Below, piece by piece: positions 30,509 to 30,609 of a stretch of DNA of 36,318 nt. This DNA is from Thermoplasmata archaeon (GTDB taxonomy: Archaea > Thermoplasmatota > Thermoplasmata > Lutacidiplasmatales > UBA184): the NCBI GenBank assembly GCA_030038095.1, contig JASHPK010000047.1, positions 1 to 36,318 on the forward strand. The letters are read 5' to 3'. The notes beneath the pieces are model-generated. The model saw only the letters and a list, made by a program, of their open reading frames with translations. It was not told the origin of the DNA and ran no database searches. The number at the start of each line of letters is the position of its first letter. Within the stretch, counting starts at the first letter, position 1. A program made the position numbers and the translations under genes.

Positions 30509-30609
30509 TGCAGGCGCCGGGATGCCCGCGAGGGGCCTTCGGGACCCCTCGATTCGAACCCGGGTAGTCAGCTTGGAAGGCTGACATCCTGCCGCTAGAT
30601 TACGCCTGC
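30509..30609 (-). tRNA. tRNA-Gly (anticodon UCC) split by a T-loop intron
   Basis: Minus strand, 101 nt precursor, 71 nt when spliced. Exon 1 is 30609-30553, exon 2 is 30522-30509. Acceptor GCAGGCG (30609-30603) pairs with CGCCTGC (30516-30510), discriminator A at 30509. The anticodon arm is GTCAGC-CTTCCAA-GCTGAC with anticodon TCC. The T-stem 5' strand CCGGG (30563-30559) has its partner CCCGG only at 30521-30517, after a 30-nt insertion; removing it restores the T arm CCGGG-TTCGAAT-CCCGG exactly. CCA is not encoded. A TATA-like GCATAAGG (30648-30655, minus) lies about 40 bases upstream. Confidence 0.92.
30523..30552 (-). other. tRNA-Gly intron at position 59/60 with a bulge-helix-bulge motif
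   Basis: A 30-nt archaeal-type intron. Its own hairpin is CGAGGGG (30551-30545) pairing with CCCCTCG (30535-30529) around a 9-nt loop. The exon strand TTCG (30558-30555) pairs with intron CGGG (30528-30525) to give the 4-bp central helix (two U-G wobbles, two G-C). It is flanked by two 3-nt bulges, AAT (30554-30552) and CAT (30524-30522). Cutting after the second base of each bulge gives exactly the exon ends that rebuild a standard T-loop. The outer helix is the T-stem itself. Confidence 0.88.

Follow-up and report, generated by a model that had tools for sequence, protein, structure and literature searches.

The bulge–helix–bulge (BHB) type of archaeal tRNA intron is already known, as is its T-loop position 59/60, which is listed among the sites of introns in archaeal tRNAs (PMC4090602). 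Reviews tie introns at noncanonical positions to heteromeric or ε2 EndA enzymes that carry a special loop, and credit Euryarchaeota with α4 or α′2 enzymes with few introns, located at 37/38 (PMC4090602, PMC4033280, PMC6379350). Where euryarchaeal tRNAs contain introns, they are described as carrying a single, canonically placed one (PMC4090602). The ASL/CSL loop is tied to broad EndA specificity, and relaxed BHB motifs, said to be poorly handled by α′2 enzymes, are assigned to the (αβ)2 and ε2 classes (PMC6379350). The α4 and α2 enzymes are reported to cleave canonical BHB motifs only (PMC4033280). The EndA of A. fulgidus is rated narrow, and that of M. kandleri, which is loop-less, is given a constrained broad specificity (PMC6379350).

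The 59/60 introns of Crenarchaeota, and above all of Thermoproteales, share with those described here the site, a BHB-type motif and their presence in several isoacceptors per genome. Crenarchaeota, however, have an (αβ)2 EndA with CSL, whereas the present genome belongs to the Thermoplasmata and encodes a fused two-domain α′2-type EndA, and a single site holds most of its noncanonical introns (13 at 59/60 versus 2 in the D-loop). The euryarchaeal 37/38 introns, found with α4 or α′2 EndA, have in common with the intron studied here the strict hBHBh′ motif and presumably the same enzyme and ligase, and three genes of this genome carry introns of that kind; their central helix, however, is built from anticodon-loop bases rather than from T-loop bases 54–57. 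The Asgard Atabeyarchaeia and Freyarchaeia resemble the present case in having unexpectedly many noncanonical introns outside the Crenarchaeota, but they belong to another phylum, have introns, often multiple, in 92–95% of their tRNA genes, and the T-loop is not singled out, as far as the accessible part of that report goes (PMC11291895). For Thermoplasmatota, Methanomassiliicoccales or Lutacidiplasmatales, none of the accessible papers was found to describe introns in the T-loop, and automatic annotations of such introns may exist. Judged by the accessible literature, the lineage, the enzyme background and the abundance at a single site are new, and the kind of intron is not.

The window, that is, the whole stretch of DNA analysed, is one contig of 36,318 bases from a 1.84-Mb genome in 67 contigs that is 91.9% complete. 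The earlier note had read it as Thermoplasmatota-like, and this holds: by FttA its closest relatives that bear a name are MAGs of Thermoplasmata, among them UBA184 and the AcS/SubAcS soil MAGs. The genome belongs to the Lutacidiplasmatales and shares its genus with UBA184, which together with the AcS MAGs falls into a single order and family within that name (PMC9287336). The placement in the genus follows from the tRNA coordinates of UBA184, which coincide with those of a genome of the window's genus (G408 and G030).

The tRNA-Gly(UCC) gene of the window (Table 1) has a 7-bp acceptor stem, a D-arm, the anticodon arm TCAGC-CTTCCAA-GCTGA and a complete T-stem, with a T-loop of 37 bases instead of 7, that is, 30 extra. 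Excision of these 30 nt gives CCGGG-TTCGAAT-CCCGG, and on folding the 70-nt product (71 with the discriminator) forms a cloverleaf with a 7-nt T-loop. In the unspliced gene, a strict BHB consisting of a 3-nt bulge, a 4-bp helix and a second 3-nt bulge sits on the T-stem, and the 7-bp intron hairpin extends to nine pairs on folding, including one U-G. The fold of the whole gene reaches −48 kcal/mol (z = −2.6 against shuffles), and none of 5,000 shuffles of the intron produced an equally good central helix with adjoining hairpin. The cut of 3-nt BHB bulges after the second base is an established rule. For tRNA-Gly(UCC) alone, cuts at 58/59, 59/60 or 60/61 would yield an identical mature sequence. 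The position is fixed unambiguously by sister genes, among them tRNA-Glu(CUC), that are compatible with 59/60 only. The earlier note had proposed the isotype, the 30-nt length, the 3-4-3 BHB (AAT / TTCG:CGGG / CAT) with its 7-bp hairpin, position 59/60 and exact restoration of the T-arm in a 71-nt tRNA; sequence and folding bear out each of these.

Table 1. Features of the tRNA-Gly(UCC) locus in the window
Feature	Coordinates	Strand	Remarks
tRNA-Gly(UCC) gene	30609..30509	minus	100 nt + discriminator A73 (30509)
Exon 1	30609-30553	minus	
Exon 2	30522-30509	minus	
Acceptor stem, GCAGGCG/CGCCTGC	30609-30603/30516-30510	minus	7 bp
Anticodon UCC	30577-30575	minus	
T-stem, CCGGG/CCCGG	30563-30559/30521-30517	minus	
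Intron, 30 nt, T-loop position 59/60, TCGAGGGGTCCCGAAGGCCCCTCGCGGGCA	30552..30523	minus	present, with diverged sequence, in 50/50 orthologues read
Central BHB helix, exon strand TTCG	30558-30555	minus	tRNA positions 54-57
Central BHB helix, intron strand CGGG	30528-30525	minus	
5′ bulge, AA/T	30554-30552	minus	putative 5′ splice site at 30553/30552
3′ bulge, CA/T	30524-30522	minus	putative 3′ splice site at 30523/30522
Intron hairpin, CGAGGGG(TCCCGAAGG)CCCCTCG	30529..30551	minus	7 bp; compensatory changes in orthologues
Promoter-like element, AAAAGCATAA	30650..30659	minus	~41-50 bases upstream of the tRNA-Gly(UCC) 5′ end

The promoter-like element is of the form AAA-N-TTA/ATA, a pattern picked after the sequences had been seen, and 37 of 49 orthologues carry a similar element between −38 and −52, compared with 0.3% of shuffles. 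Because this upstream element is conserved, the gene is probably transcribed. As the earlier note had anticipated, standard gene finders miss the gene: ARAGORN and Rfam at the gathering score both call the tRNA-Ser(UGA) next to it and nothing else, and tRNA-Gly(UCC) scored 25.6 bits in the genome search, where the cut-off was 29. A second, intact tRNA-Gly(UCC), which the earlier note had named as a finding that would speak against splicing, was not detected elsewhere in the assembly of this approximately 92% complete genome. The window's gene has U33, a base that is near-universal in tRNAs. Many tRNA-Gly(UCC) of the genus (L126, L127, L129, L130 and others) have C33 instead, in the loop CCTCCAA.

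The intron is conserved in place across the order, nearly all of the genomes compared being MAGs. A search of 106 order genomes returned matches in 100, and together with a covariance-model search it placed a Gly-UCC gene of 95–108 nt in 94 of the 106; full-length Gly-UCC was absent from the results for 12. An intronless gene would be about 70 nt long, and none such was seen in the order genomes searched. All 50 orthologues that were read, from seven genera, have an intron of 25–38 nt between 59 and 60; their exons are near-invariant and their introns diverged, with four central-helix pairs in 44 and three in 6. Across 14 of these introns, hand-picked from the 50 for a common architecture, 96.9% of cells are paired compared with 29–57% in slid controls, and in five of the seven hairpin pairs both partners have changed. 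In a mixed alignment of several isoacceptors, 92.2% of cells are paired against 33–50% when slid, rows with a longer variable loop having been excluded before modelling on account of a one-column shift in the MAFFT alignments.

The pair formed by base 57 and its intron partner also covaries. Over all sets it is G57-C (81 introns), G57-U (1), A57-U (15) or A57-G (13) and nothing else, in counts drawn from related and so not independent sequences. The same association is seen from one isoacceptor to another, from family to family and also within Gly-UCC, where in genus g5 G57 has changed to A57 together with a change of the intron base from C to G.

The arrangement is not confined to one gene. 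Among the 43 tRNA genes found in the window's genome, 25 are intronless, 3 have an intron at 37/38, at least 13 have one at 59/60 and 2 have one in the D-loop. The other 59/60 carriers are Glu-CUC (two genes), Ala-GGC, Gln-CUG, Asp-GUC, Arg-UCG, Asn-GUU, Arg-UCU, Ser-GCU, Ser-GGA, Ser-CGA and His-GUG. The 59/60 introns of the genome are 27–34 nt long, and after their removal the acceptor and T-stems pair fully, with a few G-U pairs. For Ser-GGA, Arg-UCG, Ser-CGA and Asp-GUC, the fixed-register helix with its hairpin is individually not strong against shuffles. Genes for tRNA-Trp, Lys-UUU, Leu-UAG and Pro-UGG were not found in this incomplete genome. A single-gene oddity is ruled out, the weak tRNA matches of the genome having the identical arrangement; the earlier note had overlooked that the intron is one of 13. 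Its statement that a T-loop intron in such a genome would be unusual agrees with the literature (PMC4090602, PMC4033280) and is too modest in view of the 13 tRNAs here and the use of the site throughout the class.

Nine of these 13 introns face A57, and its intron partner is G in eight of the nine. The central helix of those eight consists of three standard pairs and an A-G mismatch, and is not strict because A57 stands opposite G. The partner of A57 is G also in the Gly genes of genus g5, and U in other orders.

Typing of EndA, which the earlier note had suggested as a check, gives a fused two-domain α′2 type. The one EndA found in the genome is a protein of 354 aa with both PF01974 domains in one frame, both N-terminal domains and the catalytic Tyr-His-Lys in the C-terminal unit; it is homologous to A. 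fulgidus EndA and, judged by its two units in one chain, is of the α′2 type. The best matches of its structural model (pLDDT 91.7) are the EndA of M. kandleri (5x89), which is nearest, and the α′2 enzyme of A. fulgidus; it shares fold and domain order with both (TM-scores by query length of 0.86 and 0.76, respectively). No CSL/ASL-like insertion was found before the LSLIEA segment, and the stretch YGSRVGRRLELSL aligns gap-free with A. fulgidus and M. jannaschii, as do other Thermoplasmata EndAs. The region corresponding to the specific loop of ARMAN EndA, which contains Y160 and K161 (PMC12397907), is of equal length in the window's EndA, A. fulgidus, M. jannaschii and other Thermoplasmata. 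In relatives, too, the one EndA found is fused. With a fused α′2 EndA that lacks ASL/CSL, the lineage therefore has an enzyme type that is rated narrow (PMC6379350). RtcB is also present in the genome (E=1.9e-171).

The gene anatomy, the BHB, its conservation and covariation, and the presence of EndA and RtcB indicate that tRNA-Gly(UCC) is functional and that its T-loop intron at 59/60 is spliced, a reading of which we are highly confident; cleavage, ligation and use of the tRNA are what we infer from the sequence. T-loop bases 54–57 would base-pair with the intron's 3′ part, and the BHB so formed would stack on the T-stem, and an α′2 EndA dimer would cut both 3-nt bulges after the second base. 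RtcB would then join the exons, the 30-nt piece would leave and TTCGAAT would close. The EndA of Ferroplasma, a member of the Thermoplasmata, is homodimeric and cleaves a minimal BHB RNA at 30 °C (PMC8707768), so that EndA would read the BHB rather than the tRNA body. At least 12 further tRNAs of the genome have their intron at this site, as do many Thermoplasmata. The probable reason is that the T-loop, through its invariant TTCRA, contributes one half of the BHB; given this half-site, a fitting intron could sit in almost any tRNA.

The mismatched helices bear on which enzyme acts. As a refinement of the splicing reading, the intron might be cut by another factor, in place of an ordinary, narrow α′2 EndA or alongside it, for example by an α′2 EndA whose specificity has broadened without an ASL/CSL insertion. 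A57 stands opposite G in eight introns of the genome and relaxed motifs are assigned to (αβ)2 and ε2 enzymes, and the nearest solved structure is that of the loop-less, constrained broad EndA of M. kandleri (PMC6379350). We nevertheless consider such a factor unlikely, as only one EndA gene, with both domains in one frame, was found in the genome, and likewise in its relatives, and the 59/60 introns read in other orders and that of Gly-UCC itself have the full 4-bp helix. The insertion might alternatively be kept as a stable extra T-loop hairpin in a mature, unusual tRNA, an idea with which the stability of the hairpin and the untouched anticodon and acceptor agree. A mere extension of the T-arm would not, however, need the conserved central helix, the covariation at base 57 or the two retained 3-nt bulges, the contact between D-loop and T-loop would be lost, and EndA and RtcB are present, all of which makes retention very improbable. 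Least probable of all is a pseudogene, in which a 30-bp insertion would have disrupted one tRNA-Gly gene while another, intact one lies elsewhere: although neither ARAGORN nor Rfam at the gathering score calls the gene and an assembly about 92% complete could lack an intact copy, there is no other Gly-UCC in the assembly, every orthologue read has the insertion at one place with compensated helices, the intron has diverged between exons that hardly vary, and 12 other tRNA genes of the genome are arranged alike.

Introns at 59/60 extend beyond the family and the order. Ala, Arg and Ser genes in three genomes from two other families of the order carry them, some only 13–15 nt long. In genome G001 the 13–15-nt introns (L181, L184, L189) have no proper hairpin, and its Arg-UCG gene (L189) has an apparent insertion in the anticodon region too. 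With a covariance model, another 41 introns at 59/60 were read in other orders of the Thermoplasmata (19 genomes), most of them in Arg-CCG, Arg-UCU, Lys-UUU, Glu and His genes, and all 41 have four standard central-helix pairs. The carriers include Methanomassiliicoccus sp. UBA6, Methanomassiliicoccales PtaU1.Bin030 and Ca. Halarchaeoplasma; in a MAG of the genus Methanomassiliicoccus, Lys-UUU and Arg-UCU are among the interrupted genes. Restriction of the introns to the genus or order is thereby rejected. In 149 genomes of another euryarchaeal class, none of the matches listed has a 59/60 intron (all 70–71 nt), and those listed for eight named controls outside the Thermoplasmata are only about 69–74 nt. 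A trait of all Euryarchaeota is thus unsupported, the listed matches outside the Thermoplasmata being of intronless size, although rare cases may lie beyond those listed.

We think it likely on balance that 59/60 is an old, recurrent intron site across the Thermoplasmata, that its introns have multiplied to about 30% of tRNA genes in the Lutacidiplasmatales, and that they are removed by an α′2 EndA that lacks ASL/CSL and also accepts the A57-G mismatch in the central helix. If so, the rule that α′2 lineages have essentially only 37/38 introns would be broken, and noncanonical introns could multiply even where EndA lacks the loop to which their increase is attributed; an entire archaeal class that combines a loop-less α′2 EndA with many T-loop introns would be a direct counter-example to that rule or at least a large refinement of it. 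The strict G57-C and A57-U helices, set against A57-G, offer a natural series for what α′2 enzymes accept. About a third of the tRNA genes in this genome are overlooked or wrongly scored by gene finders that are not tuned for such introns, and estimates of completeness from tRNAs and of codon reading are consequently distorted for abundant soil archaea.

The copying of introns between tRNA genes has been described for Thermoproteales (PMC4033280), where near-identical introns occur in different tRNAs of one genome. This is matched in MAG WOFA06 (G421; L246, L253, L255, L256), whose Glu, Asp, Arg and Ala genes have T-loop introns of 36–42 nt that are 77–94% identical, which suggests recent copying between tRNA genes in that genome. 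In the window's genome the best intron–intron identity is about 70–74%, between short GC-rich sequences, and such copying is not visible because the introns have diverged too far. Its two tRNA-Glu(CUC) genes (L028, L033) have identical exons and differing 59/60 introns of 31 and 29 nt; either the intron changed fast after duplication or gene conversion was confined to the exons.

Other Thermoplasmata have D-loop introns as well, in their Arg-CCG and Lys-UUU genes (L195, L203, L243, L261). The tRNA-Arg(GCG) of the window's genome (L305, G000:C17:36866-36973) has a D-loop intron of roughly 35 nt. The D-loop intron of its initiator tRNA-Met (L034, G000:C13:30300-30800, minus strand) has the helix CAGG/CCTG with bulges AAA/AAA, and its splicing would restore GGGTAGTCAGGAAATCCC.
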